Assembly: GCA_026981855.1 (NCBI GenBank)
Contig: JALSIB010000057.1
Coordinates: forward strand, 1-36,653
DNA from: Methylothermaceae bacterium
GTDB taxonomy: Bacteria; Pseudomonadota; Gammaproteobacteria; Methylococcales; Methylothermaceae
Direction: 5' to 3'
DNA length: 36,653 nt
A program made the translations under genes and the position numbers. Each line of letters opens with the position of its first letter. Position 1 is the first letter of the stretch. This document shows positions 4,717 to 30,232 of the stretch, one piece after another. The notes below the pieces were generated by a model that saw nothing but the letters and a program-made list of their open reading frames with translations, did not search any database and had not been told where the DNA came from.

Positions 4717-6026
4717 TGCCCTTTCGCGATATTTTTGTCACTATTCTGGTGTTCGGATCCTTGCCTGGGATTCTGCGTCGCCCTGAGATCGGCATCCTGA
4801 TGTGGGCTTGGCTGGGTTATATGAATCCTCACAAACTCTCTTGGCAGTTCGCTCATGATTTCCCCTACGCGCAGATTGTGGCGATCACCACCATGCTCGC
4901 CCTGTTGCTTTCCAAGGAAGAGAAAAGGATACCCTGGACAAGGGAAACCATTTTGTTACTGATTTTCAGCCTGTGGATGCTAGTAACGACGATTTTCTCT
5001 CTCTTTCCAGAGTTGGCATGGGAACAATGGAACAAGGTCTGGAAAATCCAGCTCATGACTTTCATCAGTATGATGATCATGACGACACGCTGGCGTATCC
5101 AGACATGGATATGGGTGATCGCCCTTTCTCTGGGGTTTTATGGTTTCAAGGGGGGAATCTTTACTCTGATGACAGGGGGGGCCTATGCCGTCTATGGGCC
5201 GACTGGCACTTTCATTGGGGGGAACAATGAAATCGGCTTGGCCTTGATCATGACGGTGCCCCTGCTCCGTTATTGCCAGTTGACTACAGACAAGATCTGG
5301 GCCCGTCGCCTGCTGTTGGTGGGGATGCTGCTTTGCCTGATTGCGGTGGTGGGAACCCAGTCGCGCGGGGCTTTCATCGGCGTTGCGGCCATGTCGTTGT
5401 TCTTGGTGCGAAACAGCCGCCGCAAATGGACCCTGCTGATCTTCATGGTGATTACTTTGCCGGCGATATATATGTTCATGCCGGAGAGCTGGCATGAGCG
5501 TATGTCCACTATCAAGACATACGAACAGGATGCTTCCGCCATGGGCAGAATCAATTCCTGGTGGATGGCCTATAATTTGGCCAGGGACCGTGTGTTAGGC
5601 GGCGGATTTGAAACTTTTCAGAGGCCGGCTTTTTGGCAGTACGCCCCTAATCCCGAGGAATTGCACGATGCCCACAGCATTTATTTCGAGGTCTTGGGAG
5701 AGCATGGTTTCATTGGCCTGGGACTTTTCCTCGCCATTGGTTACTCGGCTTGGCGGAGTTGTCGCTGGATCATGAAAAAAACAAAGCAGCGCGAGGATCT
5801 TAAGTGGATCTACGACTTGGCATCCATGTTGCAAGTAAGCTTAGTCGGATATGCCGCATCGGGAGCGTTTCTCGGGCTTGCTTATTTCGATCTCTACTAC
5901 AATTTGATAGCCCTGATTGTGCTGGCGAAAGTGCTCGTCAGGAAATCACTGAATGAAGAAAAACTCCATGAATCCAACGCTGATATCGTCAAATCGGTTC
6001 CATCCTTCGTGGTGCGTAAAAACTGA
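4716..6026 (+). CDS. O-antigen ligase/polymerase-like membrane protein, exosortase A-associated
   Basis: A polytopic inner-membrane protein of 436 residues if started at the ATG 4716, which overlaps the previous stop as TGATG; an in-frame ATG at 4695 would lie inside the preceding gene. It begins MPFRDIFVTILVFGSLPGIL and has about ten hydrophobic segments plus a large loop around residues 270-320 (about 5520-5700). GTQSRGAF near mid-protein matches the Wzy_C/WaaL region. It fits the probable O-glycosylation ligase family of exosortase A loci. Such enzymes polymerise or transfer undecaprenyl-linked glycans in the periplasm. Whether it acts as polymerase or ligase is not decidable here. It is the last gene of the first rightward block and converges with the next gene, leaving only eleven bases between them. 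Confidence 0.88.
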   Translation: MPFRDIFVTILVFGSLPGILRRPEIGILMWAWLGYMNPHKLSWQFAHDFPYAQIVAITTMLALLLSKEEKRIPWTRETILLLIFSLWMLVTTIFSLFPELAWEQWNKVWKIQLMTFISMMIMTTRWRIQTWIWVIALSLGFYGFKGGIFTLMTGGAYAVYGPTGTFIGGNNEIGLALIMTVPLLRYCQLTTDKIWARRLLLVGMLLCLIAVVGTQSRGAFIGVAAMSLFLVRNSRRKWTLLIFMVITLPAIYMFMPESWHERMSTIKTYEQDASAMGRINSWWMAYNLARDRVLGGGFETFQRPAFWQYAPNPEELHDAHSIYFEVLGEHGFIGLGLFLAIGYSAWRSCRWIMKKTKQREDLKWIYDLASMLQVSLVGYAASGAFLGLAYFDLYYNLIALIVLAKVLVRKSLNEEKLHESNADIVKSVPSFVVRKN

Positions 6027-6037
6027 CTTGACACATA

Positions 6038-7837
6038 TCAATGATGCGATTCGGCCCATTGGGACCACATCATCAATACCCAGATCATGACCCCGTAATA
6101 AGAAGCGTGTCCGCTTTGATGCTGGCTTTTGAGACGGTCCAGATAATCCCGGCGAATGATGCCCGAGAAATGGCGGGAGCCGAGGCTGTCATAGGCTATT
6201 TCCTGAAGAGCAGGGTTCGATCGCAGCCATAGCCCAAAGGGCAGGCCGAATCCATGTTTGCGCTTTTCCAGGGTGGTGGGTGGCAGGAAATCACTGAATG
6301 TGTTGCGGTAAAAGGATCGAAGCTCGAACCCCTTCATCAGCATACGGTCTGGAATGGTGGCGGCCAAATTCACCACGTTCATGTCCAGCATGGGGTAACG
6401 GACATCGACACCGGCCTGGGTACACATGCGGTTGACTTTTCGAAGGTCGTTGTCGGCCAGGGTGATTTTCCAGTCCAGGTAAAGCATACGCTTCAACATG
6501 GAATTGGTGTCCGGCGCGCTGTAGGTTTCCTGAATGTGGGACAAGGGCCAGTGGTGATCGATTGACGCGAGGAAATCATGCTCGAAGATTTCCTCCAAAG
6601 GGCTTCGATGCAAAAAATTATAGGTTTCCATGCGGTCAGGCATGGGGATTTTCGCCTGATCAACGTAGCTTTTCAGTTTTCCCACCATGGAAATTGAGGG
6701 GAGTGTTTGAACGACAGGTTCAATGAAATGTGTGCGCATCCACGACGGGATATTCTGGTAGAGGGCGAACATTTTTTGTTTGCCGTAACGTTCGTTGCCG
6801 GCGAACAGTTCGTCTCCGCCATCTCCGGCCAGAAGACGGCTTTTGCCGTTGTTCCGGGCCAGGAGGGCGCAATAGTAGGTGGGTACGGCCGAGGCGTTGC
6901 CGAAGGGTTCATCGTAGGTTTGCGCTATCAGGGGAATGGCCTTCACCACGTCTTCCGGGGTGACATAATGTTCGTGCAAGGGGAGGCCAAAATGCCGGGC
7001 GGCGGCCCGGGCGTATTCCATTTCGTCGTATCCCTTGGCGGAAAAACCGATGGAGAAAGCCTCGGTTTCCGGGTGCAATTGACGGCACAGTCCTGTGACG
7101 GTGCTGCTGTCGAGTCCGCCGCTCAGAAAAGTCCCCGGGCTTTCTTCCCCGGGGAGGGCCTGCGATACCGCGGTTTTGAGCTTGCGTCTGAGTTCTGTGG
7201 CCAGTTCCCGTTCATTGCCGGACAGGTCTTCGAACCGCGGCAGCCAATAACGATGAATCGTGATGCTGCCTTTGTTCCAATACAGATAGTGGCCGGGGAG
7301 AAGCTTGTCGATGCCTTCGTAAATGGAAAGGGGGGCGGGAATCATGTGGAAATAGAGGTAGGCCATCAAGGCTTGGGGATTCAGCCTCGTGTTGAGGGCC
7401 GGGTGAGCTGTCAGGAGGTTGATATCTCCCGAGAAGATCAGTGCTTCTGGTGCCGCGGCGTAGGCGAGGGGGCAGACGCCCATCCGGTCTATGGCAAGCA
7501 GTCCTTGCCTGGTCCGGGAATCGAAAACAGCCAGGGAGAACGTGCCTGTCAATCGTTGCAAGAATTCGGGGCCTTCCCTCCGGAATGCCGCGGCAATCGA
7601 GGCGGCGATATCCGTGTCCCGGCTGGATTCTGTTTCGCCGTCATTTCGCCACCGGGGGGTGCCTGTCACCAGAGCAATGGTGTCGTCTTTTTTTCCGATT
7701 TTCCCGTTTTTTCCCGAAGCGAGGGCGGAAAGTGCATGGATTTCCAAATTCTGGCATGCGGGGAATATGGTTCTCACCAGTTCGGATGGGCTATTTTTCG
7801 TATCAGCGGTCGAGAACCAGCCTAACAAGTCATACAT
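6038..7837 (-). CDS. Asparagine synthetase-like protein lacking the glutaminase nucleophile
   Basis: A 599-residue AsnB homologue. The C-terminal synthetase domain is intact: FLSGGLDSSTVTG with the PP-loop at residues 239-245, YDEPFGNASAVPTYY, and LAGDGGDELFAGN. The N-terminal domain keeps the class II glutaminase fold remnants (LTGTFSLAVFD, then LLAIDRMGVCPLAYA) but starts MYDLLGWFSTADTK, without MCGI and thus without catalytic Cys2. It cannot release ammonia from glutamine in the usual way, so it may use free ammonia or, like beta-lactam synthetase relatives, another amine nucleophile. It stands alone on the minus strand, convergent with the ligase gene and divergent from the sulfotransferase 35 bases away. 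The substrate is probably a cluster sugar acid or amino sugar (inference). Confidence 0.85.
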   Translation of the reverse strand: MYDLLGWFSTADTKNSPSELVRTIFPACQNLEIHALSALASGKNGKIGKKDDTIALVTGTPRWRNDGETESSRDTDIAASIAAAFRREGPEFLQRLTGTFSLAVFDSRTRQGLLAIDRMGVCPLAYAAAPEALIFSGDINLLTAHPALNTRLNPQALMAYLYFHMIPAPLSIYEGIDKLLPGHYLYWNKGSITIHRYWLPRFEDLSGNERELATELRRKLKTAVSQALPGEESPGTFLSGGLDSSTVTGLCRQLHPETEAFSIGFSAKGYDEMEYARAAARHFGLPLHEHYVTPEDVVKAIPLIAQTYDEPFGNASAVPTYYCALLARNNGKSRLLAGDGGDELFAGNERYGKQKMFALYQNIPSWMRTHFIEPVVQTLPSISMVGKLKSYVDQAKIPMPDRMETYNFLHRSPLEEIFEHDFLASIDHHWPLSHIQETYSAPDTNSMLKRMLYLDWKITLADNDLRKVNRMCTQAGVDVRYPMLDMNVVNLAATIPDRMLMKGFELRSFYRNTFSDFLPPTTLEKRKHGFGLPFGLWLRSNPALQEIAYDSLGSRHFSGIIRRDYLDRLKSQHQSGHASYYGVMIWVLMMWSQWAESHH

Positions 7838-7872: not shown

Positions 7873-8796
7873 ATGAAGGATTTTATTGAAAAAGTGTATA
7901 AAACGCTCGCATTTTATCAAGGGGAAATGATGGGCGCGGTGCGTGGCCTGCGTTTCGATGCGTTTTCTGTGGAAACGCACGATCCCGTGTTCGTGGTGGG
8001 ATGCAGCCGGGCCGGCACGACACTGGTTTATAAAACCTTGTCGGAGTCCCGGGATTTGGGGTCGCTGCACCGGGAAACCCACGACTTCTGGGCACAGCTT
8101 CATCCACCGGCAGAGCGCCAGTGGGCAAGTCACGAGATCCCGGAGGAACTGGCAAACGATCAGGATCGCCGGCTCGTTGACAAACTGTTTTATACCACAA
8201 CGGGCAAGACGCGTTTCGTGGACAAGAACAATCAAAACGGCTTGTCGATTCCCTATCTGCGCAGCTTGTATCCGGATGCGTTTTTCATTTATGTGAAGCG
8301 CCATCCTGGCGACAATATTCACTCCCTGATCGAGGGATGGCGGCGGGCGGATACGTTCGCCACCTGGTCGGATCGGCTGCCGGCCGAGGTTGCGATCGAA
8401 AACGGGCGTTTCAGGCGGTGGTGTTTCTTTCTTGCCGAGGGGTGGCGTGATTATCTGACTGCCTCGATCGAGGAAGTATGCGCTTTCCAGTACCGGAAAA
8501 TGAATCAGGCCATTTTGGCCGCCCGGCAGACCGTGGATCCGGAGCGGTGGTGCGAAGTTCGCTATGAATCCATTCTGGATGATCCCGTGGAAACTTTCAG
8601 GGGGATTTTCACCCATTGCCGGATTCCATTTGATGCGCATCTCGAACGGCATTGCAGCCAGGTTCTGGAAAACCCCTACAATGCTTTTTCAACGATCGGC
8701 AAGGAAAAGTGGAAATCCACCGGAAACCGCGCCAGGATCGAGAAAATATTGCCACAGGTGTGGCCGGTGGCCCAGGCCATGGGATACCGGGAATGA
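7873..8796 (+). CDS. Sulfotransferase family protein
   Basis: A 307-residue PAPS-dependent sulfotransferase-like protein. The 5'-phosphosulfate loop is PVFVVGCSRAGTTLVYKTL (about residues 38-56), and the 3'-phosphate region is FFIYVKRHPGDNIHSLIEGW. The start ATG 7873 was chosen over upstream in-frame starts because GGAAGGAA lies just before it and the P-loop then sits at the usual distance from the N-terminus. It opens the second rightward block and is divergent from the AsnB-like gene. It probably adds sulfate to a hydroxyl of the cluster polysaccharide; acceptor unknown. No PAPS-synthesis genes are present in the window. Confidence 0.85.
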   Translation: MKDFIEKVYKTLAFYQGEMMGAVRGLRFDAFSVETHDPVFVVGCSRAGTTLVYKTLSESRDLGSLHRETHDFWAQLHPPAERQWASHEIPEELANDQDRRLVDKLFYTTTGKTRFVDKNNQNGLSIPYLRSLYPDAFFIYVKRHPGDNIHSLIEGWRRADTFATWSDRLPAEVAIENGRFRRWCFFLAEGWRDYLTASIEEVCAFQYRKMNQAILAARQTVDPERWCEVRYESILDDPVETFRGIFTHCRIPFDAHLERHCSQVLENPYNAFSTIGKEKWKSTGNRARIEKILPQVWPVAQAMGYRE

Positions 8797-8828: not shown

Positions 8829-9872
8829 ATGTTGTATCTTTCCCGCCTGAATGCTTTGAAAGCGCCTGTTTTGGACAGGCCCGTCGTGATTCTGGAAAGC
8901 GATGATTGGGGGCCGGGGCCGGAAGTTCAGGTGCGGGCCTTGGATGAGATCCGCTTATTGTTGTCCCGATTCCGGGACGAGAGAGGGCGGCATCCGGTGA
9001 TGACCATGGGCGTCATTCTTTCCGTACCCGACGTCCAGGCCATTGAAGAGAGCGGCCGCTACCAGGCGCGCTATCTGAACGAACCGGAATTTCGTTCTCT
9101 CGTGGATATCCTCAAGCAGGGGGCTGGGGAGGCGGTGTTCGATCTCCAGTTACACGGCATGGCCCATTATTGGCCTTCCAACCTTATGACTTTTCTGGAT
9201 CGTGGGGAGGATGTGCCGGACCGGTGGTCGAAACGGGAAGGGTGGCGGACGGAGTCGCTGCCTTCGTGGTTGCAGAGCCGCTGGATCGATGCCGGAACCC
9301 TGCCCTCGAAACCGTTATCGTATGAACGGGTGCGGGAGGCGGTCGCGGACGAGATCGAGTTGTTCCGGTGTTGCTTCGGAATGGATCCAAAAGTGGCGGT
9401 TCCCCCCACTTTCGTATGGGGCGATAATGTGGAGCGGGCATATGGAAGCATGGGGGTCGAGGTTCTGATCACGCCCGGGCGGCGTTACCCCGGCCGTAAA
9501 GGTGACGGGGCATTGATGGACAGCGACAAGCAGTACGTCAATGGACAGCTTGTCTGCGGGAAAATGAAGGCGTTGGTGAGGGATCTGTACTTCGAGCCGG
9601 CGTTGGGACATCGAGGTGACAAGGTGCTGGAGAAGATCTCCTGGAAATGGTCGCGGAGGGAGCCGGCTTTGATCGAGACCCACCGTTTCAATTACCTGGG
9701 CGAACACGCCCGGACGTCGTTGGATGCCTTGGAGCGTTTGCTTGAAGGCGTGATGGAAAAGTTTCCGGCTGTCCGTTTCATGAGCTCCCGGGAGCTGGCC
9801 CGGGAAATGGACGGGCAGGGCACTATCTGGAAAGGGGGGCTTGAGGTTGCCTGGAAAAGGTTGCGTTCATGA
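8829..9872 (+). CDS. NodB-like polysaccharide deacetylase family protein
   Basis: A 347-residue protein resembling carbohydrate esterase 4. The acid/metal motif appears as VILESDDWGPG with Asp25-Asp26, and the metal-binding H-x3-H appears as LHGMAH (His109, His113). A later block reads PPTFVWGDNV, and FNYLGEH occurs in the C-terminal third, the usual place for the catalytic histidine. The first motif is unlike the classic TFDDG, so this is a divergent subgroup. It would remove N- or O-acetyl groups from the glycan. There is no signal peptide, suggesting action on a cytoplasmic intermediate. GGGAGTGAG lies about eight bases upstream, and the 3' end overlaps the next gene by ATGA. Confidence 0.72.
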   Translation: MLYLSRLNALKAPVLDRPVVILESDDWGPGPEVQVRALDEIRLLLSRFRDERGRHPVMTMGVILSVPDVQAIEESGRYQARYLNEPEFRSLVDILKQGAGEAVFDLQLHGMAHYWPSNLMTFLDRGEDVPDRWSKREGWRTESLPSWLQSRWIDAGTLPSKPLSYERVREAVADEIELFRCCFGMDPKVAVPPTFVWGDNVERAYGSMGVEVLITPGRRYPGRKGDGALMDSDKQYVNGQLVCGKMKALVRDLYFEPALGHRGDKVLEKISWKWSRREPALIETHRFNYLGEHARTSLDALERLLEGVMEKFPAVRFMSSRELAREMDGQGTIWKGGLEVAWKRLRS

Positions 9873-13792: not shown

Positions 13793-14689
13793 TCAAGTTT
13801 GGTTTGAAAGTGCCAGCAGATCTTCGGGAATGGGTTGGCAGGTGAACAATGCATTGAACTGTTCTTGTTCGATGGCTTGTTCCGGCTTTCTTGGAAAGAG
13901 TCCACTCTCCCCGATTTCGTACATGCGATAACCTCGTGAAGTCAGGAAAGTGGCAAGCCCGATGGCGGAGTGGCCAAAAGCACTCAGGTAATCATCAGTG
14001 ATTTCAATGACGATGCTGGGCTTGTCCCGCTCCAAAAGGTGTGTCATTCCATTCAGAACCTTTTGTTCAGCCCCTTCCACGTCGATTTTGACGACATTCA
14101 CGCGCCGAGGCAGGTCGGGTAATTCGTCTAATGGTATTGTTTTTACCTGAATCTGATCGATGGAATTCTCTATCTTTCTCAGACTGGAAATGCCCTTATG
14201 TCCTTCCGGACCTTCGAAAAGAGTAAGGACTCCTTTGGTATCAGAAAGAGCGACGTTAAATAGCTTGACATGAGAAAACCCGTTCAGAGTCAAATTTTGT
14301 TTCAGCCGTGTACTCATGGCAGGGACAGGTTCAAAACTCAACACTTGCCCGTCGCTTCCTACTTGTCTGGCGGCCAATAGTGTGAAAAAACCGGAATTTG
14401 CGCCTATATCGATAAACGTATCGCCTTTGTTCAATAAGTGGGCGATAATTCTGGCTGTCGGCGGCTCATAGACGCCGGTCAAATAAACGTATTGTCCCAG
14501 CCAGTCACCGAGGTCGGCTTTATAAAGAAAATCATAGGGGCAAGAAACGATGCGTTCCCCCATCAGGGCACCTTTTTCTCGAAGGATTGGCAATATATGA
14601 TGAATGATTCGCCAGCGACCGATATTCAGGGGGCTGTGGCGCAGGTAAAGGGATGCCAGCGTAACTTTGAGCCGAGGATACAGATTCAT
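13793..14689 (-). CDS. FkbM family SAM-dependent methyltransferase
   Basis: A 298-residue methyltransferase. The SAM-binding motif I is GDTFIDIGANSGFFTLLA (about residues 89-106), followed by VLSFEPVPAMSTRLKQNL (acidic residue for the ribose) and the FkbM signature VNVVKIDVEGAEQKVLNGM. FkbM enzymes O-methylate sugars or polyketides. In this context a hydroxyl on the cluster glycan is the expected acceptor. Its start overlaps the stop of the fusion gene by four bases, so the two are translationally coupled. Confidence 0.9.
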   Translation of the reverse strand: MNLYPRLKVTLASLYLRHSPLNIGRWRIIHHILPILREKGALMGERIVSCPYDFLYKADLGDWLGQYVYLTGVYEPPTARIIAHLLNKGDTFIDIGANSGFFTLLAARQVGSDGQVLSFEPVPAMSTRLKQNLTLNGFSHVKLFNVALSDTKGVLTLFEGPEGHKGISSLRKIENSIDQIQVKTIPLDELPDLPRRVNVVKIDVEGAEQKVLNGMTHLLERDKPSIVIEITDDYLSAFGHSAIGLATFLTSRGYRMYEIGESGLFPRKPEQAIEQEQFNALFTCQPIPEDLLALSNQT

Positions 14690-17600
14690 TTCGCGTTCCG
14701 GAAAAAAATTGGTGGTTGGTGTTCCTTGTCATTTATGGCAGCGTCAGGATCATTTTCTATCCATTCTCGCAGACGTTCCCATAGCATTCTAGCGGTTTCC
14801 GGGTAGGTCGCCGAGAGGTTCCGGGTGCAATCCGGGTCGGATTCCGTGTCAAACAGCATTAGTAAATGCCCTGTTATCATGGGGATGTAAATCAGTTTCC
14901 ATTTTCCTTGCCGGATCCAACGGTCTTTGGCTGCAATCACTAGGTGTTCGTATTCTGGTTTTAGGGTTATGGTGCCTGTTTCCAGGTTTCTGACGGTAAG
15001 GAGTTCGATGAGATTTGGATAACGAAGATGGTCTTTCGGCATACCGGGCAAGTCGCTAAGCCAGATGCCGGTTTCATTGTATATCGGGAAATCTGGCATA
15101 ACCGTTTCCCGGTGAAATATTTTGGCGAGTGACTTCCCATCCATGCTTTGTTCCAATCTTGAGTGGATGCCGACCAGTTCCAGAAGTGTGGGAGGCAGAT
15201 CGATGCTGCGGGTTGGTTGGTGGATGGTTTGAGGGGATATCCCGAGGCCTTTGATGATCATGGGCGTTTTGCTGGAAACGTCGCTGATGGCTGAGTTTCC
15301 CTGTCCCCACGTATGATGTTCGAAAAATTCCATGCCATGGTCGGTATAGATCACCACAAGGGTGTTCTCATCGAGACCGCAGGCTTTCAAGTGAGCACAG
15401 AGTTTCCGCACTTCATCATCGAAACAGGTGACGCAACCATCGTATAAATCGATGATCTGATCCAGATCAAAGGCTTGCCGGGGTTCGGCCTGACGGCGGA
15501 TGATTTCCCACGGATCGGTGAGGCGGGCCATGACGAACTTGGATTCACCCCGATAATCACGATTGGCATAACGCAGATAGTAAGGGTATTCCGAGCCGAA
15601 GGGACCGTGGGTAGTCGAAAAGAAAACGTTGAGGAAAAAGGGTTGTGCCCGTTGTGCCAGATGCGTGATCAAGTGCCGGGCTTCTCTTCCCAGCTCGGTG
15701 GTTTGGGGGACGCCTCCCAGGTAGTAGATCTCCGGTAAAAATGTCTTTCCAAAAAGGTTGCGGGTGAAGAGTGACAGAAACAGGCGCAGATCTTTAGGGC
15801 CTTGGCGGATGAAGAGCTTGATGTTCCATTGATCCTCTGGCACGTCGGTGTAGTCGAAACCCAGGTCGAATTTTCCCAGATCCGCGCCACACCAGTCTGA
15901 CAGGGCGGCGGTGTAATATCCCGATTGTTTCAATAACCGTGGAAGGGTGGGTACGGTCAGTTGGGTGGTTTCGTCCGGTACGAAATTGTCCCGTACACCA
16001 AACCGGTATGGCCAGCAGCCGGTCAGGAGGGACAACAGGCTTGGCGCGGTGCGGGCGATAGGGACGAAGCACTGGATAAGAAAAACACCTTGCCGGGCCA
16101 GGCTTCGAATAAAGGGGGCGACCTCCCGACGGTAGCTGCCATCCAGGCGATCCGCACGGAGAGTGTCGGAGCCAATCATGACGATATTTGGTCGTTTCCC
16201 CTTTTTGTTTGGGACAGCCTTTGCTTCGGTGGGGCGAAGCCATAAATGCAACAACAGGCCGAGTGCCAGGGGGGCTGTGTAGGCGACTCCAGCTGGAAGA
16301 TCTGCTTCTGAGAATGACTTCATGGCCGCAAGCGCCGATAACGTCAACGGGATGGCCAGGAGGAGGGCGGTGGTGGTATTCAGGCGTTTTTTCGTCAGCT
16401 TCTGCCAAAAAGGGTAGAGTCGGCTGATTCTGTAGTTGTAGGAGGCTGCGATGTTGGCGGGCAGCAAAAGTAAATGACGGCTGAATTGGCATACCGTCAA
16501 GAGGGCAATGGAAAGGCTCCCGGCAGAGAAGGCTGGAAAACCACGGGGAGATAGATCGGCGATTTCTGCGATGGAAAAATACGCCAGCACACCAGGGGCA
16601 GCCAGCACGGAGAGGATCAAGAACGCGAAGCCCAACAGGCGGAGAAACGAAAAAACGATGTAATGTCGGTAGTGGGCAAGAATCTTCTGGGGAATCCGCG
16701 GTCCTGCGTAGCTGAAATCCAGCAGGGATTTGAGGGCGAGACAGCAGGTGAACACCGCTGCCGCTGCCAGGGTTGCACCCAGCGCCGTGCCCATGTGGGC
16801 GTTGGCCGATAGGAACGCCGCCGAAATTCCTGCAGCGGTGGCGAGTGACAGAGAGATGAGATAAATACGGTTGTGCCGTATTTCTTCATTGCGGCGGTCA
16901 CGGCGCCAGCGTCTCGCTTGCTGACCGGCCATTTCACCAAGAATGGTACTGATTCGAACCAGATAAAAGCGCCACCCGGCCATGTTGAAGGCAAGCACTA
17001 AGCTGGCGAGGTAAAGCGCGAGTTTTTTCCATTGATAAAGCGGAATGCCTTGACGTCCGGCCTTCGCCATTGCGGTTGTTTTGGCGCGCTGGAAGGCTTT
17101 TCTGAGTACGTACCGGAAACGTAATCGTTCGGGATCCACATAGTGGTATTGCAATACGCCGGGAATGTATCGGAGGCGTTCCCCCCGACATAAGGCTTTT
17201 TCGACGAAAGCGCTGTCTTCCCCGCCACCCAGGTCGTGGCCATGGGGGCCGAGTTCGGGGGAAAAATGGCCTACTCGTTCCAGTATGCGGCCCCTGATAA
17301 ACAGATTGCCTCCCCCCGGGGTGGGATCGTCGCTTTTCAGTTCCCGACCAATGGGGCCGCCATCGCTGCGGGGAATGGGCAGGGGCCTGATGCGATAAGG
17401 CCCCTCGTCGTGTACCCAGGCCGGCTCACTGCCATCCCAGTCGGGAAGGATGCGTCCGCAGAACATGGAGAATTCAGGATACCTATCGCCGGCCCGGCAA
17501 ATTTCTGCCAAGTAGTTGTAATCCACCCGGTGATCGTCATCGACGAAGGCGATCAGATCCGAATCTTTGATTAAGGGAATGGCCGTGTTCAATGCCTGGG

Positions 17601-17835
17601 ATTTTCCAGGTACGGGTTCTTTCAGCCATATCAATGGAAGACGGCCGGGTTCTTGCTGGGAAAGACTTTTTTCCCGTTCCAGCAGTGCGTGTGTGCCATC
17701 GTCACAGGCATTGGCGACGACAAGGATTTCGACCTGCCAGGGGCGGGAGGGACGTTTCGCGGCCTGTAAAGAGTCGAGTGCGCGCTTGAGCAGAAGCTCC
17801 CGGTTATGGGTGCAGATAAGAACAGTGAGTTTCAT
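14686..17835 (-). CDS. Fusion: GT2 glycosyltransferase - membrane domain - sulfatase/phosphotransferase-like domain
   Basis: A 1049-residue single frame. Residues 1-~265 are a GT2 domain (LTVLICTHNRELLLKRAL, IAFVDDDHRVDYNYLAE with DDD at 99-101, and a GGEDSAF region). Residues ~270-535 hold about seven hydrophobic segments. Residues ~545-1020 are an alkaline-phosphatase-superfamily, sulfatase-like domain: NIVMIGSDTLRADRLDG (metal Asp), ARTAPSLLSLLTG and VVIYTDHGMEFFEHH (Asp832-His833). In the C/S-x-P-x-R nucleophile motif the Cys is Thr596 and the Arg is Leu, so formylglycine-dependent sulfatase activity is unlikely; a Thr nucleophile suits a phospho-group transferase or hydrolase. Seven segments would put the GT2 in the cytoplasm and the second domain in the periplasm. 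It overlaps both neighbours by ATGA. Confidence 0.86.
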   Translation of the reverse strand: MKLTVLICTHNRELLLKRALDSLQAAKRPSRPWQVEILVVANACDDGTHALLEREKSLSQQEPGRLPLIWLKEPVPGKSQALNTAIPLIKDSDLIAFVDDDHRVDYNYLAEICRAGDRYPEFSMFCGRILPDWDGSEPAWVHDEGPYRIRPLPIPRSDGGPIGRELKSDDPTPGGGNLFIRGRILERVGHFSPELGPHGHDLGGGEDSAFVEKALCRGERLRYIPGVLQYHYVDPERLRFRYVLRKAFQRAKTTAMAKAGRQGIPLYQWKKLALYLASLVLAFNMAGWRFYLVRISTILGEMAGQQARRWRRDRRNEEIRHNRIYLISLSLATAAGISAAFLSANAHMGTALGATLAAAAVFTCCLALKSLLDFSYAGPRIPQKILAHYRHYIVFSFLRLLGFAFLILSVLAAPGVLAYFSIAEIADLSPRGFPAFSAGSLSIALLTVCQFSRHLLLLPANIAASYNYRISRLYPFWQKLTKKRLNTTTALLLAIPLTLSALAAMKSFSEADLPAGVAYTAPLALGLLLHLWLRPTEAKAVPNKKGKRPNIVMIGSDTLRADRLDGSYRREVAPFIRSLARQGVFLIQCFVPIARTAPSLLSLLTGCWPYRFGVRDNFVPDETTQLTVPTLPRLLKQSGYYTAALSDWCGADLGKFDLGFDYTDVPEDQWNIKLFIRQGPKDLRLFLSLFTRNLFGKTFLPEIYYLGGVPQTTELGREARHLITHLAQRAQPFFLNVFFSTTHGPFGSEYPYYLRYANRDYRGESKFVMARLTDPWEIIRRQAEPRQAFDLDQIIDLYDGCVTCFDDEVRKLCAHLKACGLDENTLVVIYTDHGMEFFEHHTWGQGNSAISDVSSKTPMIIKGLGISPQTIHQPTRSIDLPPTLLELVGIHSRLEQSMDGKSLAKIFHRETVMPDFPIYNETGIWLSDLPGMPKDHLRYPNLIELLTVRNLETGTITLKPEYEHLVIAAKDRWIRQGKWKLIYIPMITGHLLMLFDTESDPDCTRNLSATYPETARMLWERLREWIENDPDAAINDKEHQPPIFFRNAK

Positions 17836-18746
17836 GATGATCTGCCGAGGAGTCCCTGGATGGTTCCCAAAAAGTGCCAGACGATGATTTCATGGTGAAA
17901 TGCAATATCCTCAGAATCAGTCAGTCTGGAGTATATCGCTCTGGTGAAAGCCCTGCCCAGTTGGGGAAACAGATAGAGGGGAACATTGAAAATCCGCCTT
18001 TTTCCTGGCAAACCACGGCTTTGCGCGATATTCCGGCTGGTTTGAAAGCGCCAGCGGCGGAAATAAGCCTTTTTGAGTCGGAAACCTTCTACCTTGTGAT
18101 GGACACGGGCATTTCCCAGAAAGACTACTTCATAGCCGGCCTTGAGGAGTCGCTCGAACATTTCTCCATCTTCTCCGCTGGCCAGGGTTTTCCCCTTGCG
18201 TCCCCGCTCGGTGTCGAACAGTCCCACTTGATCGAACACTGATCTTCTGAAAGCCATGTTGGCCCCAAAGGGGGCTTGACCGGGGGCGGTGATCGGGTAA
18301 TCGTCGGTCCGGTCGGCCCGAATCGCCAGAAATCCGTGAAATCGTTCCGTCAACCAGGGAGGAGGGGGTATTTCCCAAATGGGCGCGATGTAGCCACCAC
18401 AGGCGTCGGCCTGATGACGCTGTATGCCGGCGAGTATATTCTCCAGCCAGTCCGGTTCCGGGAGTACGTCGTCATCGGTGAACAGCAAGATTTCTCCCCG
18501 CGCCGTATTTATGCCACGATTGCGGGCATGGGAGAGACCTTGGTTGGCTTCATAGACATACCGCAGGGTGGGCCAATCTTTCTGAAAGGACTCGATAACG
18601 CTTTTTGTATGATCCGTGGAACGGTTGTCGACAACCACCACCTCCCAGGACAGCGCGGGCTCTGTTTTTTGCGCCTTCAGTGCCTGCAGGGTTTCACGGA
18701 GCGAATCGGCCCGATTGTAAGTGCAGACGATGATGGATGCTTTCAT
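17832..18746 (-). CDS. Glycosyltransferase family 2
   Basis: A protein of about 304 residues in the GT-A fold. KASIIVCTYNRADSLRETLQ opens it, VVVVDNRSTDHTK follows, and the metal-binding site is LFTDDDVLPEPDWLEN. The C-terminal half has FGANMAFRRSVFDQVG and GEDGEMFERLLKAGY, typical of the acceptor side. The ATG at 18746 shares a base with the upstream stop (TAATG); an in-frame ATG two codons earlier (18752) is an alternative and neither has a strong ribosome site. It is closely similar in layout to the N-terminal domain of the downstream fusion, so the two may have arisen by duplication. Confidence 0.91.
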   Translation of the reverse strand: MKASIIVCTYNRADSLRETLQALKAQKTEPALSWEVVVVDNRSTDHTKSVIESFQKDWPTLRYVYEANQGLSHARNRGINTARGEILLFTDDDVLPEPDWLENILAGIQRHQADACGGYIAPIWEIPPPPWLTERFHGFLAIRADRTDDYPITAPGQAPFGANMAFRRSVFDQVGLFDTERGRKGKTLASGEDGEMFERLLKAGYEVVFLGNARVHHKVEGFRLKKAYFRRWRFQTSRNIAQSRGLPGKRRIFNVPLYLFPQLGRAFTRAIYSRLTDSEDIAFHHEIIVWHFLGTIQGLLGRSS

Positions 18747-19681
18747 TACCATGAATACCCGACTTGCTCAGCCACGGAACCCACAGCGCGTTTAAGCAGC
18801 CAACGTTCCAGAAGGCTCACATGGGCCTTGTTGCCATTTTTCTCGGAACTCCCGACTTTGGATTCCAAAATTCGGCGGTCGATTTCAATCTTGAGATACG
18901 CTTCCAGTTTGTCTATCAGACTGGTGTCGGAAACCATGTCCTCATAACGGATGACGAGGGCGTTGAGTGCCTTTGCATCCCTCAGAAAGCCTTCCACGAG
19001 GCGGCGCCAATGGGTACCGAAGGCAGTCGGCGTAAAAACCGGTTTTTGGGGAAATACGTCATACCAGCTTCGGCCGTAGCGGCAATAGGAGCGGTATGTA
19101 TCGAGTGGATTTCGGTAGAGCAGCACGAAACTTGCCTTGGGGTAGAGCCATTTCAGGTAGGCGCAGTGTTCCACTCCCAGACGTACTTCCTTGATGCCCC
19201 ATCTGGAGGCCCCGGTTTTTTTTGCCGGTTGGGAAAACAAGGTATCAAACAGGGCGCGGTGACTTTTATGCCAATGTTCCAGCGATGGGAATAAATTGGC
19301 GATCCATTCGCCGGTCAAATGGCCCGGTGGCTTTCCTTGGTAGAAGTCATAGAAATAATTCTCCGGAGGCCAATCGTCGCGGAAGGCCAGCAGGGTATTC
19401 GCCAGTGCCTGGATCAAGCCGCACTCGTCGTAAGGTTCGCCCCATATCAGAATTCGGGGGTCGGACATGATCAACCGTTGGAGTAAGGTTGAACCGGATC
19501 GCCAACCAGCGGACAAAAGAAAAATTGGCGCTTCATCATCTGGAGATTCTAAAGGAGCATGAATGTGACCGAGCCGGGCGAGTCCCGTTTTGACAGTGGG
19601 AAAATTTCGCAAGGCCCGTCGGTGATTTTTTCGGGCGTAGGGTGTACCAAGTAAAGCAGCGGTCAGAGTTTTAAGCATCAC
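18746..19681 (-). CDS. Sulfotransferase family protein
   Basis: A 311-residue sulfotransferase-like protein. The 5'-phosphosulfate loop is FLLSAGWRSGSTLLQRL (about residues 54-70), and the 3'-phosphate binding region is FVLLYRNPLDTYRSYCRYG. RWGIKEVRLGVEHCAYLKWL precedes it as in bacterial carbohydrate sulfotransferases. It lies in the leftward operon between a GT2 and another sulfotransferase of a different subgroup. A polysaccharide hydroxyl or amine is the likely acceptor (inference). Confidence 0.84.
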   Translation of the reverse strand: MMLKTLTAALLGTPYARKNHRRALRNFPTVKTGLARLGHIHAPLESPDDEAPIFLLSAGWRSGSTLLQRLIMSDPRILIWGEPYDECGLIQALANTLLAFRDDWPPENYFYDFYQGKPPGHLTGEWIANLFPSLEHWHKSHRALFDTLFSQPAKKTGASRWGIKEVRLGVEHCAYLKWLYPKASFVLLYRNPLDTYRSYCRYGRSWYDVFPQKPVFTPTAFGTHWRRLVEGFLRDAKALNALVIRYEDMVSDTSLIDKLEAYLKIEIDRRILESKVGSSEKNGNKAHVSLLERWLLKRAVGSVAEQVGYSW

Positions 19682-19720: not shown

Positions 19721-20476
19721 TTATTTGACATCAATGATTTTTCGATAAAGATAAGCATCGGGTTCACAGAGTTGAGCTATTTTTTTCCGGACGTGGTCGG
19801 GAATCTTGGATAGAGAGGTTTTGTGGGATTTCGGAGTCTGATTCAAATGCTTGATAGTGAGTCGGTGGCTGAAAATTTCTTCAAACCGCCTAGCGAAGGC
19901 AGGTATGTCGTCGATAGTCCCAACCAAGGTGAATCTGCGGTATCTCTCAATGGCGATTTCAGTCAATTTTTCCATGCTGATCGCGTCCTTTTCCACATCC
20001 TCTGTGACTTCGTCCACAAAGGCACGTCCGAAGGAAGCGCCGAGATTTGTCTCCACAAATTCTTCAATGGGAATTTGAATTTTTCCTTTTAGATGATTGT
20101 ATCGGTAATGGGAGAGAAAACGGTCAATTGGATTTCGGAGTACGGTAATGAAGTGCCAACGATCACCATATGTATCGTGTGCCGTGTTGCTGTAGAAGAA
20201 ATGGCCAGCGATACATTTCACTTCTGGCAGTGACATCATGTAGTTAAGTAGATCCCGCCTTACCAGGTTGCCGTTGCCGATGGTGTTTCGTTCGGCGTAG
20301 CGTGCCGCATTTTCGTTCAGGGTGACGATGGACAGGGCATTTTTTGGCCGCCACGGTTTGTAGCAGCGCACGATCGCGTTGGAGATAGAAGTTCCACCGC
20401 ACTTTGCGATATGAAAAAAGAAAATACGATGATCGGTGATAGGAGGATCTATGTAGTCTTTGATTCTGTCTAACAT
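19721..20476 (-). CDS. Sulfotransferase family 2-like protein
   Basis: A 251-residue protein of the sulfotransferase family that includes heparan/chondroitin-type Golgi enzymes. The P-loop is FFFHIAKCGGTSISNAI (about residues 19-35), and the 3'-phosphate motif is VLRNPIDRFLSHYRYN. This HIxKCGGTS form is distinct from the loops of the other two sulfotransferases in the cluster, so three different acceptor sites, or three linkages, are plausible. It is flanked by short gaps of about 40 bases on each side within the leftward operon. Composition is a little more AT-rich than the neighbours. Confidence 0.85.
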   Translation of the reverse strand: MLDRIKDYIDPPITDHRIFFFHIAKCGGTSISNAIVRCYKPWRPKNALSIVTLNENAARYAERNTIGNGNLVRRDLLNYMMSLPEVKCIAGHFFYSNTAHDTYGDRWHFITVLRNPIDRFLSHYRYNHLKGKIQIPIEEFVETNLGASFGRAFVDEVTEDVEKDAISMEKLTEIAIERYRRFTLVGTIDDIPAFARRFEEIFSHRLTIKHLNQTPKSHKTSLSKIPDHVRKKIAQLCEPDAYLYRKIIDVK

Positions 20477-22489: not shown

Positions 22490-23605
22490 CTATGGTTTGC
22501 CTGTTATTACTTGAACGATTTTCCGGGCGGCGGTCCCGTCTCCATACGGGTTGATTTGATTTGCCATTTCCTCATAGGCCGCAGTGTTTTCTATCAGCAG
22601 GGATGTTTCCCGCACGATGGCCTCGCTATCGGTACCAATGACTTTGACGGTACCGGCGGCCACTCCTTCCGGTCTTTCGGTGACTTCCCGCAGTACCAGC
22701 ACCGGCTTGCCCAGGCTTGGGGCTTCCTCCTGGAGTCCTCCGGAGTCGGTGAGGACAAGGTGGGACTGTTTCATCAAATGCACCAGGGGCAAGTAATCAA
22801 GGGGATCGATCAGGAGAACGTTGCCAAGCCCACCCAATGACTCGCCGACTATTTCGCGCACGTTTGGATTGGGGTGGACCGGATACACGAGAACGATTTC
22901 ATCCCTGTATTTCAGCGCCAATCGTTTCAGCCCTTCGCAAAGGGATCGGAATGGCCTTCCGAAGCTTTCCCGGCGATGGGCGGTGACCAGAATGATTTTT
23001 TTGGTATTGAAGGGCAAAGACGCAAGTGGTGTGCCCTGAAAATCAAACGGGCGGCCGGCAACATCCAGAAGAGCATCGATCACGGTGTTTCCCGTGACGG
23101 TGATGGCTGTTTCTGGAACGCCTTCATTCAGCAAATGCTGTTTTGCCATTTCGGTGTGGGGAAAAAACAGGTCGGTCACCGAATCGATGATTTTTCGGTT
23201 GGCTTCTTCGGGATAGGGTTGGTTCTTGTTAAATGTGCGTAGCCCGGCCTCCACGTGACCGATTTTGATGCCGGCGTAAAAGGCTGCCATGGCAGCGGCC
23301 ATGGAGGTGGTGGTGTCTCCCTGTACCAGTAGGAGATCAAAAGATTCGCGGCGTAAAATGGCGCCGATCTCCTGAAGAACGCCTATGGTGATATGTTCCA
23401 GGGTTTGATTTTCCCGCATCAGATCCAGATCGTAATCGACGCGAATGTCGAACAGTTCGAGCAGGGGGGCCACCATGTGTTTGTGTTGGCCTGTCAGGCA
23501 GTTCTTGTTCAGAACTTTCCCCCGCTGTTTTTCCAATTCGGAGATGACTGGTGCCATTTTGATGGTTTCCGGCCTGGTTCCGAAAACTGTCAAGGTCTTA
23601 AGCAT
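22490..23605 (-). CDS. wecB: UDP-N-acetylglucosamine 2-epimerase (non-hydrolysing)
   Basis: A 371-residue enzyme starting MLKTLTVFGTRPETIKMAPV, which is the family signature. LLVQGDTTTSMAAAMAAFY, GHVEAGLRTFNKNQPYPEEANRK, TAHRRESFG, LTDSGGLQEEAPSLGKPVLVLR and TERPEG are all present, so the active site looks intact. It interconverts UDP-GlcNAc and UDP-ManNAc in the cytoplasm, giving a ManNAc or ManNAcA precursor. The inner ATG 23605 is preferred to 23620 because GAGAAGG directly precedes it, although the spacing is short. It overlaps the end of the upstream gene by eight bases. No UDP-ManNAc dehydrogenase is seen in the window. Confidence 0.95.
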   Translation of the reverse strand: MLKTLTVFGTRPETIKMAPVISELEKQRGKVLNKNCLTGQHKHMVAPLLELFDIRVDYDLDLMRENQTLEHITIGVLQEIGAILRRESFDLLLVQGDTTTSMAAAMAAFYAGIKIGHVEAGLRTFNKNQPYPEEANRKIIDSVTDLFFPHTEMAKQHLLNEGVPETAITVTGNTVIDALLDVAGRPFDFQGTPLASLPFNTKKIILVTAHRRESFGRPFRSLCEGLKRLALKYRDEIVLVYPVHPNPNVREIVGESLGGLGNVLLIDPLDYLPLVHLMKQSHLVLTDSGGLQEEAPSLGKPVLVLREVTERPEGVAAGTVKVIGTDSEAIVRETSLLIENTAAYEEMANQINPYGDGTAARKIVQVITGKP

Positions 23606-24524
23606 GGGCCTTCTCGGCATCTTGTTTGAGTTTCCATGCGTCGAGAAAATATTTGACGCCCCAACTTATTTCAGCACCTGAGATATATTTGGCGCCTTTG
23701 CCGTAACTTCCGAAAAATCCACCGGAGGGATTTTGTATTTTCTCCAGATAGCGGATCGCCCTATCGGCCCGCTCCTTTTCTCCCAAGGTGTACCAGACGA
23801 TGGCGTATTGCGCCATTCCGGTGGAACAAATCCACCCTACATTGGGATAAGCGGGAATACGGCCGTCTCTTTTCTGGTATTGAGCCACTTCCTCCATGCC
23901 TTGTCGGGCCAATTCAAATTCCCCCATTTCGCACAGTGCTTCCATGGTGTAAGCGTGGAAGTGGGACAGGCGATTGAAGGGTACCAGGGACTCTTGGCGC
24001 TTGTAGTAATCGAGCACGAACGCGGCGACCTCCTCGTATTCTTTTACGCCCAGAATCTTACCTGCTTCGGCTAGGGGGGGAAGCACATAGGTATGGATCA
24101 GGTCATCGGCGATGTCGCCCCATTGTTCGACCGATGGGGTTTTGAGCTGTCCGCTGCTCGTGTCCACTTGAGTAAGAATCCAGTCGCCGGCTTTTCTGAG
24201 CGCGGCCTCCGCACCATCGACATCCCCGATAGCGGAGCATAGTCCCCGCATGATCTGACCGGTGTCGAAGGTATAAGGCACACCATCTGGGGCGGGAAAG
24301 GCCCCGTCCGGCCTCTGGATGGACAATAGCCAGTGGGTGCAAGTCCGTGCCAATTCGGTTTCTTTCCAGGCGTAGAGGGTAGGGATGAAATAGCCGGTTA
24401 CCTCGGGATAAGGTACCGGTTGCTTCGTATGGACAATGATTCCTTGATCTGGAATCATGTTTTGCTTAAACCAATCCATGGCCAGCTCGTAACTTGGTTT
24501 TTTGGTTTTTTTCCAGAAAAGCAT
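23598..24524 (-). CDS. Helical-toroid (prenyltransferase/terpene-cyclase-like fold) protein of unknown function
   Basis: A 308-residue protein built of repeated helical hairpins like those of the alpha/alpha toroids. Conserved blocks are YPEVTGYFIPTLYA, SIQRPDGAFPAPDGVPYTFD, TGQIMRGLC, ICSTGMAQYAIVWYTLG, NPSGGFFGSYGKG and ISWGVKYFLDAWKLK. The same blocks, in the same order, occur in the product of 28988-30175, so the two are paralogues. There is no signal peptide. Candidate roles are an epimerase, lyase or glycosidase acting on the glycan, but no catalytic residues are identifiable. It overlaps the epimerase start. A terpene cyclase role is unlikely because no DxDD motif is seen. Confidence 0.75.
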   Translation of the reverse strand: MLFWKKTKKPSYELAMDWFKQNMIPDQGIIVHTKQPVPYPEVTGYFIPTLYAWKETELARTCTHWLLSIQRPDGAFPAPDGVPYTFDTGQIMRGLCSAIGDVDGAEAALRKAGDWILTQVDTSSGQLKTPSVEQWGDIADDLIHTYVLPPLAEAGKILGVKEYEEVAAFVLDYYKRQESLVPFNRLSHFHAYTMEALCEMGEFELARQGMEEVAQYQKRDGRIPAYPNVGWICSTGMAQYAIVWYTLGEKERADRAIRYLEKIQNPSGGFFGSYGKGAKYISGAEISWGVKYFLDAWKLKQDAEKAHA

Positions 24525-24566: not shown

Positions 24567-26615
24567 TCAATATTTTTTAATTGGTGGTGGTTTCAATTTT
24601 AAATAAGATTCTGATTCACGAATCCTGATGATCTGGTCTGCCTCCAAATCTTTAAGAATCTGGTTTTTTCCACTTGGCCAATGAATGGATATTTTGTCAA
24701 TTTTGGTATTTTGAGCCAGTCCGAAGTGTAGTCTGGCATGATTTTGGCTGCGATTATGTAACCCGCCGTCTTGAACTCTGGTTTGGGTGATTCCGCCTGC
24801 AGTTAGCCGGACAACCGCGCCAATGCCATCCCTGTTTGAATCCTTCCCTTCCAGGTCTATTTCAATCCAGTGGTTAGTGTTTCCGATATTGTGATACAGG
24901 CGGTAATACCCTTGCGAAGAGGGCAGGCCAAGGCTTCTCCCCATACTGCCACCGTTGGCGATTAGCAGATCGAGAAAGCCATCGCCATCATAATCAGCGG
25001 TCGTGACCGAGTCTCCCACTCCTTTTTTATTTCCGGCAGCGCCTCCGGCATATTTCACAGGGTTGAAATGGCCATTTCCCCGGTTTAGGAGTAACAGGTT
25101 TTCTTGGTTTCCAATGACGCCAGAAGCCAGAATAAAGAGATCGAGATCCATGTCGTTATCAAAATCACCGGTAACGACATTGCTACCTGCCACCAATCGG
25201 TTATTGATGCCCCGTTTGTCGCTTTCCTCGACAAACTTGTTTCCCAGGTTCATGAATAGGCGGGCGGGGGCCTGTTTGGTATTGTTGTCGGGGCTGCCGA
25301 TGGGTTCTATCTGGGTGATTGGCTCCGTCGAGAGAATATGGATGTGAATATTTTGGTATTGCGTGGTGCCTGTTTCAAATGCCTTGCGGTCGGCGCTTGC
25401 CCGTATTTCCCATGTGTCGGATCCGGTCATGCCGATATAGAGGGCGGAATCGGCTCCAGGGGTATAATTTACCAATCCCTCAACCCCCGATGTTTCCCGG
25501 GACAAGGGAAACATAAGTCGTGGGGGGTGGATGCCTTGCCTGCCGAGGAATATTGCCTGCGGCGAGATTCCGTCGTGAGGCCAGGCCGGGTAGGCCTGGA
25601 CGTTCATGTGGCCGGTGGTGTGAAATTTTAATCCAAGGGGTCTATCCTGGTTGGCAGAGTTGATTTTCAGGTCAACCATGAGTTCGTTGTTTCCGGGATT
25701 GCTCCAGACAACGGGGGGAGGGGGGGACTTTCGGGCCAGAAACAGATCGATACGGCCGTCATTGTCAAAATCCCCTGCAGCGATGTCTTCGAATGCGGTG
25801 ACCGGTAGCAGATCAAGTTCGTGAGGAGGCAGGGTGGAGGTATCGAAAATCTGAACCGTTCGCTTCGCTCCTCTGCCTGCTACCCGGCAGACCATTTCAG
25901 GATGAACTTCATCGTTGAGCTGGGTCAGGATGCAAAAAGGAATGGCCTTGGTGGCGAATTGAACCAGATTTTCTTTTCCGGTGAATTGGTGGGTGGCGTC
26001 TTGAAGGAATATGAAGGGTGGTACTTGGTCGTCGAGCCGTTGTTCGGCCCCCTGAAACAAATCGAGATGGCTGTCCCCATTCAAGTCCACCCACAAGGGA
26101 ATCCGCGTTCTGCCGCTGAGGTTGGCGATTCCCACCTGTTTTCCGATTTCTTCAAAACGATTTCCAACATTCCTGAACAACTGCTTGGGTTCTTGACCTA
26201 CTCCCCGCACCGCGCCCGTCAGTTGCACAAGATCAAGGTCGCCGTCGTTGTCGAAGTCTGCCCACTGGGCGCCATGTTTGTCTCTGCCCAGATCCTTTGA
26301 ATCGAAGAGCTCATGCGTCACATCTTTGAATTGTCCGTTACCCAGGTTTTTGTATAGTTGGGCCTGGTTGAGATGATTGGTCAGCCAAAGGTCCGGCTTG
26401 CCGTCGTTGTCATAGTCTCCCCAGGCGGCGCCATGGGTCATGCCGGCGTGGTCGATGAGCGGGGTTTTGAGTGTGACGTCTTCGAATATTCTGATGTCCT
26501 CTTCCCTTTCAAGGCAACCGCTCAATGCCAGGAACATCAGGACCATCGTTGCTGGATACCAATACCAACTGGTGAATCTGGATGAGGATGACAAGGACTG
26601 GTGTTTTATGAACAT
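24567..26615 (-). CDS. FG-GAP/VCBS repeat lipoprotein with ASPIC/UnbV C-terminal domain
   Basis: A 682-residue predicted lipoprotein. MVLMFLALSGC gives a lipobox with Cys34 (an inner ATG at codon 24 is an alternative start). Repeated calcium-binding loops follow, for example GDYDNDGKPDLWL, ADFDNDGDLDLVQL, GDFDNDGRIDLFLA, GDFDNDMDLDLFIL and ADYDGDGFLDLLIA, forming a beta-propeller of the integrin-alpha type. The last ~110 residues (HWIEIDLEGKDSNRDGIGAVV to the end) match the ASPIC/UnbV module. Such proteins bind carbohydrates or scaffold surface assemblies. It lies inside the polysaccharide operon, so a role in anchoring or exporting the glycan is plausible but unproven. Confidence 0.86.
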   Translation of the reverse strand: MFIKHQSLSSSSRFTSWYWYPATMVLMFLALSGCLEREEDIRIFEDVTLKTPLIDHAGMTHGAAWGDYDNDGKPDLWLTNHLNQAQLYKNLGNGQFKDVTHELFDSKDLGRDKHGAQWADFDNDGDLDLVQLTGAVRGVGQEPKQLFRNVGNRFEEIGKQVGIANLSGRTRIPLWVDLNGDSHLDLFQGAEQRLDDQVPPFIFLQDATHQFTGKENLVQFATKAIPFCILTQLNDEVHPEMVCRVAGRGAKRTVQIFDTSTLPPHELDLLPVTAFEDIAAGDFDNDGRIDLFLARKSPPPPVVWSNPGNNELMVDLKINSANQDRPLGLKFHTTGHMNVQAYPAWPHDGISPQAIFLGRQGIHPPRLMFPLSRETSGVEGLVNYTPGADSALYIGMTGSDTWEIRASADRKAFETGTTQYQNIHIHILSTEPITQIEPIGSPDNNTKQAPARLFMNLGNKFVEESDKRGINNRLVAGSNVVTGDFDNDMDLDLFILASGVIGNQENLLLLNRGNGHFNPVKYAGGAAGNKKGVGDSVTTADYDGDGFLDLLIANGGSMGRSLGLPSSQGYYRLYHNIGNTNHWIEIDLEGKDSNRDGIGAVVRLTAGGITQTRVQDGGLHNRSQNHARLHFGLAQNTKIDKISIHWPSGKNQILKDLEADQIIRIRESESYLKLKPPPIKKY

Positions 26616-30175: not shown

Positions 30176-30232
30176 GATTGACAATTCAGTTTAGGGAACG
30201 ATGCGATGGGGGGAGCAAGTTTTTGCCTGAGG

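Follow-up and report, generated by a model that had tools for sequence, protein, structure and literature searches.

A threonine-bearing sulfatase-fold domain fused to a family 2 glycosyltransferase in an XrtA/PEP-CTERM exopolysaccharide locus of a Methylothermaceae bacterium

The catalytic domain of EptA/MCR and LtaS lies outside, and the streptococcal GacH-type glycerol-phosphate transferases, which are LtaS-like, carry a Thr and modify polysaccharides, have an extracellular catalytic domain that is separate from glycosyltransferases (GTs). To our knowledge, the EptA-, LtaS- and GacH-type enzymes known all work outside. We analyzed a stretch of 36,653 nucleotides from a Methylothermaceae bacterium (the window; GenBank assembly GCA_026981855.1, contig JALSIB010000057.1, positions 1 to 36,653), in which one gene on the minus strand encodes a family 2 GT (GT2) domain, a membrane domain and a sulfatase-fold domain with Thr at the nucleophile position. 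As a tentative call that falls just short of even, we read its product as a membrane-anchored two-domain enzyme of exopolysaccharide assembly with both active sites in the cytoplasm, which would combine sugar addition with Thr-based phospho-transfer before flipping.

The gene is a frame of 1049 codons without interruption at 14686-17835. That a single frame joins a GT to a sulfatase-superfamily domain, as a sequence-only reading of this DNA had proposed, was borne out by matches above the curated cut-offs to PF00535 (GT2; residues 4-143, 43.4 bits) and PF00884 (Sulfatase; residues 549-890, 126.7 bits); no other PF00884 match was found in the genome (2.75 Mb, 99% complete). The N-terminal domain carries the domain signature and the DxD and ED motifs of the GT2 family, with D99, E206 and D207 present in 65/65 rows that have a letter there and D100 in 60/65. 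The protein and its parts were delimited as follows.

14686-17835, minus strand: GT2 / six-transmembrane (6-TM) / sulfatase-fold fusion protein, 1049 aa (single open reading frame (ORF), Pfam, AlphaFold)
16891-17835, minus strand: GT2 domain and its C-terminal interface helices, residues 1-315 (PF00535, conservation, modelled helices)
17533-17541, minus strand: D99-D100-D101, DxD-type motif of the GT2 domain (sequence; 99 and 100 conserved)
16237-16887, minus strand: six-helix membrane domain, residues 317-533 (hydropathy of 60 rows, AlphaFold, loop charges)
14731-16197, minus strand: sulfatase-fold (alkaline phosphatase superfamily) domain, residues 547-1035 (PF00884; Foldseek/VIA matches to S1 sulfatases)

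Relatives were collected by a scan of the genomes of 84,980 species, which returned 142 relatives, and the 80 best loci were kept, so the proportions given here are no census. An ORF was called fused when a BLAST match of > 80 bits to the window GT2 lay within it. By this measure the same GT2 and sulfatase share one ORF in 61 of the 80 loci (L087 was counted although its BLAST match spans only GT2 residues 103-308), and the sequencing error or chance join that could have produced such a frame is thereby ruled out. The family occurs in Thiobacillus, Nitrotoga, Sulfuriferula, Thauera, Aromatoleum and others. No window-type GT2 match was found in the sulfatase ORF of 15 loci, and 4 were cut by contig ends; in 5 of those 15 a different GT2, read from the sequences, stands at the start of the ORF, and PF00535 was confirmed for one such form (L076). 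PF00535 was matched in 39/44 members of the set A2; given that the window and 36 fused rows account for 37 of these matches, L063 and L076 would be the remaining two. In a tree of 78 rows (the window and 77 of the 80 loci; L049 and L087, with odd or late-starting ORFs, and L121 were left out) the alternative GT2 appears in four separate places; the tree program counts 5 changes for the 5 alternative-GT2 rows, two of which are separated by the contig-cut L106.

Standalone versions of the sulfatase-fold domain were found in 10/80 loci, in 7 of which an orthologue of the window GT2 (49-57% identity) lies two or three genes upstream. Among 61 genomes (the own genome and 60 relatives) several encode the sulfatase half alone, at about 690 aa, and in G003, G004, G006 and G009 a separate GT2 (46-51% identity) adjoins it. 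The two domains are thus separable and their coupling is not absolute; the pairing of a single sulfatase module with different GTs is a hint that both act on the same molecule. At one further locus (L003, genome G015, positions 1480-4521) the GT2 and sulfatase-like halves are adjacent and in the same frame with a TAG stop between them, an arrangement that looks like an intermediate between the split and the fused forms. Separately, six loci (L086, L092, L094, L101, L107 and L117) have in common the gene order GT2, sulfotransferase, GT2, standalone sulfatase-like gene.

Within the sulfatase-fold domain, R595-T596-A-P-S-L600 replaces the C-x-P-x-R motif, and GSD (555-557) and DHG (832-834) are retained; the sequence-only reading had seen the same replacement and the same two motifs. 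Across the 78 rows the proposed active site is conserved as follows.

16165-16167, minus strand: D557, proposed first metal ligand (D in 78/78 rows)
16048-16050, minus strand: T596, proposed nucleophile (T in 78/78 rows)
16036-16038, minus strand: L600, where C-x-P-x-R has its Arg (L in 76, M in 1 and V in 1 of 78)
15607-15609, minus strand: H743, equivalent of the sulfatase general-acid His (H in 78/78)
15337-15342, minus strand: D832-H833, proposed metal ligands of the DHG motif (78/78 each)
15301-15303, minus strand: Q845, at the place of the catalytic Lys of sulfatases and phosphonate monoester hydrolases (PMHs) (Q in 78/78; aligned with a Lys in both 6hhm and 4upk)

The N617 column holds N in 73 rows and T in 5, and the K-x-H pair is replaced by D647 and C649 (D in 78/78; C in 70, A in 7, S in 1), so that where true sulfatases have C, R, K, H and K, the fusion family has T, L, D, C/A and Q. 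In choline sulfatase, according to PMC5870055, the corresponding residues bind the metal, act as nucleophile and as general acid and, in the case of the Asn, bind the substrate; this residue equivalence was drawn via alignments to other sulfatases. K655, initially taken from its spacing as the equivalent of choline-sulfatase Lys102, was dropped, as two profile alignments place D647-W648-C649 there. For comparison we used 23 matching sulfatase ORFs from 28 loci in the 299 genomes of the phylum that were searched, chosen by similarity and not at random: among the 22 that could be aligned, the nucleophile column is Cys in 21 and Thr in 1 (L020), and the Lys column is Lys in 16, Arg in 2 and another residue in 4.

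A search of the 99% complete genome for FGE (PF03781) and anSME (TIGR03942), the only maturases sought, gave no match at E up to 0.001. Thus the protein has the fold of the S1 formylglycine sulfatases, and neither the Cys/Ser of (C/S)-x-P-x-R nor an FGE/anSME match. Since the residues that hold formylglycine and sulfate are replaced and both maturases lack a match, the second domain, with its conserved motifs, is probably an active metalloenzyme and not a sulfatase. Thr stands at the nucleophile position in 30 of the 59 PF00884 Pfam seed sequences, and formylglycine made from Thr had never been shown, as far as the accessible part of PMC5066984 reports; with the formylglycine/sulfate site lost as well, phospho-chemistry would be a better guess than sulfate chemistry for this Thr domain.

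Foldseek and VIA searches with the AlphaFold model listed 50 rows, made up of sulfatases and PMHs that cover model residues ~547-1041, and the best VIA match among those listed was 6hr5 (Z 29.7, rmsd 2.8, 357 aligned, model range 547-1031). EptA and LtaS were absent among these 50 rows, which is no proof of unrelatedness, and a profile comparison aligned the sulfatase half with the catalytic domain of EptA relatives at 97.7% probability (the EptA profile was built from 17 of 19 control ORFs, described below). The membrane parts of the fusion family and of the EptA relatives reached 0.2% in hhalign, and when the membrane domain was searched against the PDB nothing matched at E up to 0.001 and the best Z was 6.5, which says little either way. 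The EptA_B_N domain (PF08019) was not among the Pfam matches of the fusion protein and had none in the genome, and the NCBIfam cut-off for LtaS was not reached (NF053595, 34.5 bits vs 970). The likeness to EptA and LtaS suggested by the sequence-only reading therefore holds for the Thr and the superfamily; it does not extend to the fold matches listed or to the first metal motif (G-S-D-T vs G-E-T), and probably not to the membrane profile. The fusion protein may act in the manner of EptA/LtaS while standing apart from them in domain content, motifs and predicted membrane side. Structure prediction, which that reading had named as a check, returned the sulfatase fold, with S1 sulfatases as the best matches listed.

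Whether the protein has six helices or the roughly seven of the sequence-only reading matters, as an even or odd number would place the sulfatase domain on opposite sides of the membrane. Hydropathy averaged over the 60-row alignment of fused forms (L049 and L087 left out) gave peaks at about 325-344, 352-370, 398-423, 433-452, 486-505 and 516-533, and AlphaFold (model 1; 44 rows, mean pLDDT 86.7, pTM 0.80) built six long helices at 317-343, 347-372, 390-425, 432-457, 482-509 and 513-533, preceded by GT2-side helices at 266-281 and 285-315. A model of the membrane part alone (53 rows, pLDDT 87.3, pTM 0.81) agreed on six. The candidate seventh helix at ~272-300, at the C-terminal end of GT2, was rejected: it is not hydrophobic in the 60 rows and is modelled with the GT2-side helices.

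Loop charges alternate along the six helices (A to F). In the 60 fused rows the mean net charge is +2.9 before helix 1, +2.4 in loop B-C, +5.3 in D-E and +2.9 after helix 6, and +0.1, -0.3 and 0.0 in A-B, C-D and E-F. Across the 78 rows, Lys/Arg per residue is 0.157 in B-C and D-E combined vs 0.077 in A-B, C-D and E-F (higher in 76/78 rows), and net charge is +7.35 vs -0.38 (higher in 77/78 rows); raw Lys/Arg counts (19.6 vs 2.6; 78/78 rows) favor the longer loops, and the length-corrected contrast persists but is smaller. The pattern is followed by 9/11 further standalone sequences, and B-C and D-E are also the loops that contain conserved residues. As a control, 19 EptA relatives from the phylum received the same treatment (L141 is without the motifs looked for; the threshold did not separate helices 2 and 3, and the loop between them was read by eye). 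Their N-terminus and loop 4 are positive and loops 1 and 3 neutral or acidic, which yields the known form with the N-terminus in and the catalytic domain out, in a phase opposite to that of the fusion family. Cysteine content, considered as a marker of the compartment, did not discriminate: the sulfatase domain has a mean of 8.2 Cys, and the EptA control has 8.9 beyond residue 200.

With six helices, and with GT2 placed in the cytoplasm, the compartment of its nucleotide-sugar, the sulfatase-fold domain would be cytoplasmic too. A chain from Candidatus Nitrotoga sp. 1052 (L049:4942-9306) bears on the same point, with GT2, a six-TM sulfatase-like part and then a C-terminal PF04464 match (45.3 bits, cut-off 22.1). 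PF04464 is the CDP-glycerol:poly(glycerophosphate) glycerophosphotransferase family, which works in the cytoplasm. The arrangement put forward in the sequence-only reading, with a sugar added inside and a phospho-group outside, is not supported by the helix count, the loop charges and the EptA control; its idea of a phospho-group enzyme gains from the active site.

The window is an XrtA/PEP-CTERM exopolysaccharide locus, recognized by TIGR03108, TIGR04063 and TIGR03097 together with an exosortase that is present elsewhere in the genome. The fusion gene has start/stop overlaps with both of its neighbors. The genes that define its setting are these.

17832-18752, minus strand: second GT2 gene, start/stop overlap with the fusion gene, just upstream
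13793-14689, minus strand: FkbM-family methyltransferase, start/stop overlap with the fusion gene, just downstream (TIGR01444, 114.7 bits, cut-off 37.7)
18746-19681, minus strand: sulfotransferase (Sulfotransfer_3, domain match)
19721-20476, minus strand: sulfotransferase (Sulfotransfer_2, domain match)
7969-8796, plus strand: sulfotransferase (Sulfotransfer_3, domain match)
512-2392, plus strand: XrtA/PEP-CTERM amidotransferase, marking the locus type (TIGR03108, 1043.9 bits, cut-off 816.9)
2393-3601, plus strand: PEP-CTERM/XrtA system glycosyltransferase (TIGR04063, 634.9 bits, cut-off 442.05)
4695-6026, plus strand: PEP_O_lig_1, exosortase A-associated ligase/polymerase-like (TIGR03097, 537.3 bits, cut-off 188.1)
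26692-28146, minus strand: Wzx-like flippase (resembles NF058658 and PRK10459 but scores below both cut-offs)

Other genes of the window include two for proteins similar to the C-terminal part of squalene-hopene cyclases (23598-24524 and 28988-30184), the first of which has counterparts beside wecB in some related loci; one for a protein with FG-GAP / ASPIC-UnbV repeats (24567-26615); another amidotransferase resembling asparagine synthase (6038-7837), which is divergent and falls far short of the TIGR03108 cut-off passed by the copy at 512-2392; and a protein with a marginal GH57 match (8829-9872; 21.3 bits, cut-off 21.2) that has relatives in 41/80 loci. The last may correspond to a gene of the Thauera MZ1T cluster that is described as polysaccharide-deacetylase-like. 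Entries named 'sulfatase (wbbL)' are found in the accessible parts of two published gene lists, for Tmz1t_3253 in Thauera MZ1T and RGS1_10427 in Rubrivivax (PMC4784049, PMC3684757). Going by a gene map and a table, they lie in the same kind of locus and probably belong to the same gene family, and the double name would suit a protein that is both GT2 and sulfatase; possible non-sugar ester substituents are reported for the Thauera MZ1T polymer in the available text. Among the matches listed we recognized no literature on a GT2-sulfatase fusion, in a search whose coverage left subscription journals mostly outside.

In the mechanism that we tentatively favor, the GT2 domain would add a sugar to a lipid-linked repeat unit while the helix bundle holds the second domain next to the bilayer. 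Thr596 and a metal ion would attack a phosphoester to form a Thr-phosphoryl intermediate, from which the phospho-group (e.g., phosphoethanolamine or phosphoglycerol) would be passed to the freshly added sugar before the unit flips. Candidate donors are an inner-leaflet phospholipid or a nucleotide-activated donor. The more specific proposal, that of a cytoplasmic-face sulfatase-fold Thr phosphotransferase in one chain with the GT whose product it modifies, and with interchangeable GT2 partners, which would form a module that decorates lipid-linked exopolysaccharide precursors with sugar and phosphate, we regard as possible while doubting it.

Several observations weigh against this interpretation. 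We found no homologue with a tested activity and recognized no donor-making gene in the window, and the Rubrivivax 'sulfatase (wbbL)' is without a marked transposon hit in the cluster screen, as far as the accessible parts of PMC4784049 and PMC3684757 go. The membrane side is read from helix count and loop charges, from which 2/78 rows deviate in charge density and 1/78 in net charge. The segment after the last helix is not diagnostic, as EptA relatives are positive there (Lys/Arg 9.2, Asp/Glu 4.1) though it lies outside. The three-domain PF04464 chain comes from a single locus of 80 and could be an artefact; its extra domain, searched among the ORFs of the 80 loci, matched only itself, and PF04464 is without a match in this genome. 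Coupling to GT2 also has gaps: the standalone loci L099 and L100 have a distant GT2 only and L113 has none, a close GT2 is present in G016, G044 and G141 although the matches listed for these genomes include no close, full sulfatase partner, and G002, G029, G038, G041 and G059 have the sulfatase half with no close GT2 beside it. Finally, a sulfotransferase-like gene within the fetched stretch of 37/80 loci could point to sulfate, and transfer is only somewhat more likely than plain hydrolysis.

A hydrolase on the cytoplasmic face, in which the Thr domain removes a phospho-group from a lipid-linked or nucleotide intermediate as GT-coupled trimming or quality control, is the competitor that we take most seriously while judging it unlikely. 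S1 sulfatases and PMHs, which lead the fold matches listed, are hydrolases, a PF01663 phosphodiesterase match is present in 44/44 A2 members, and no sequence feature demands transfer; that the domain is joined to GT2s within a biosynthetic locus speaks for construction over removal but is not decisive. We consider improbable a periplasmic EptA/LtaS-like transferase that decorates the polymer outside while GT2 works inside. The Thr, the profile match between the sulfatase half and EptA relatives and the roughly five helices of the standalone versions, like those of EptA, would all agree with it, whereas the six helices of the fusion, loop charges of the wrong phase in 77/78 rows with the EptA control opposite, the missing profile match between membrane parts and the C-terminal PF04464 of L049 speak against it.

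A pseudoenzyme role, of the kind considered for YejM-like proteins, would have the domain bind metal and substrate and regulate or scaffold the GT. The replacement of five sulfatase active-site residues is consistent with this, but all 78 rows keep the metal ligands, the nucleophile and the general-acid His, none of which a pure scaffold would need, so we give it little credence. Least credible of all is a sulfate-handling enzyme that removes or moves sulfate added by the neighboring sulfotransferases: the three sulfotransferase genes of the window and the sulfotransferase-like genes of the 37 loci do suggest that the polymer may be sulfated as well, but the protein has no Cys/Ser for formylglycine, has lost the Arg and Lys of the sulfate site and comes from a genome without an FGE or anSME match, and the accessible part of PMC5066984 speaks, as noted, against formylglycine from Thr.

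Cytoplasmic phospho-transfer, if true, would break the picture of such decorations being added outside, would supply a function for one class of Thr-bearing 'sulfatases', and would make the non-sugar substituents of these polymers testable via a one-gene deletion. In the loci examined and in the accessible parts of the two published gene lists, the family stands among polysaccharide genes, named 'sulfatase' or nothing.

Compared with S1 sulfatases (choline sulfatase 6g5z and 7ptj; the S1_25 module 6hr5), the fusion protein has in common the fold, the metal-binding Asp/Asp/His and the general-acid His. It differs in having Thr for Cys/Ser, no Arg of C-x-P-x-R, D-W-C for K-x-H and Gln for the catalytic Lys, and in being membrane-bound and joined to a GT. 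The PMHs 2w8s and 2vqr likewise have the same fold (Z 25.4 and 25.3), with one Asp in the first metal motif and Asp-His in the second; unlike the fusion protein they have no GT fusion, 4upk retains the Lys, and PMHs use formylglycine according to the accessible part of PMC5066984. EptA/MCR and LtaS belong to the same superfamily and have the Thr nucleophile and membrane helices ahead of the catalytic domain, but they are without a GT domain, whereas the fusion protein carries GT2. In the 17-row alignment of EptA relatives the first ligand is Glu (G-E-T) and the nucleophile motif reads T-x-x-S-x-P-C, in contrast to the Asp (G-S-D-T) of the fusion protein. Their catalytic domain is periplasmic, and that of the fusion family, judging by helix count and loop charge, would not be. 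The GacH-type enzymes are alike in polysaccharide modification and in the Thr, and unlike in that their catalytic domain is extracellular and their GTs are separate, where the fusion protein unites both in one chain.

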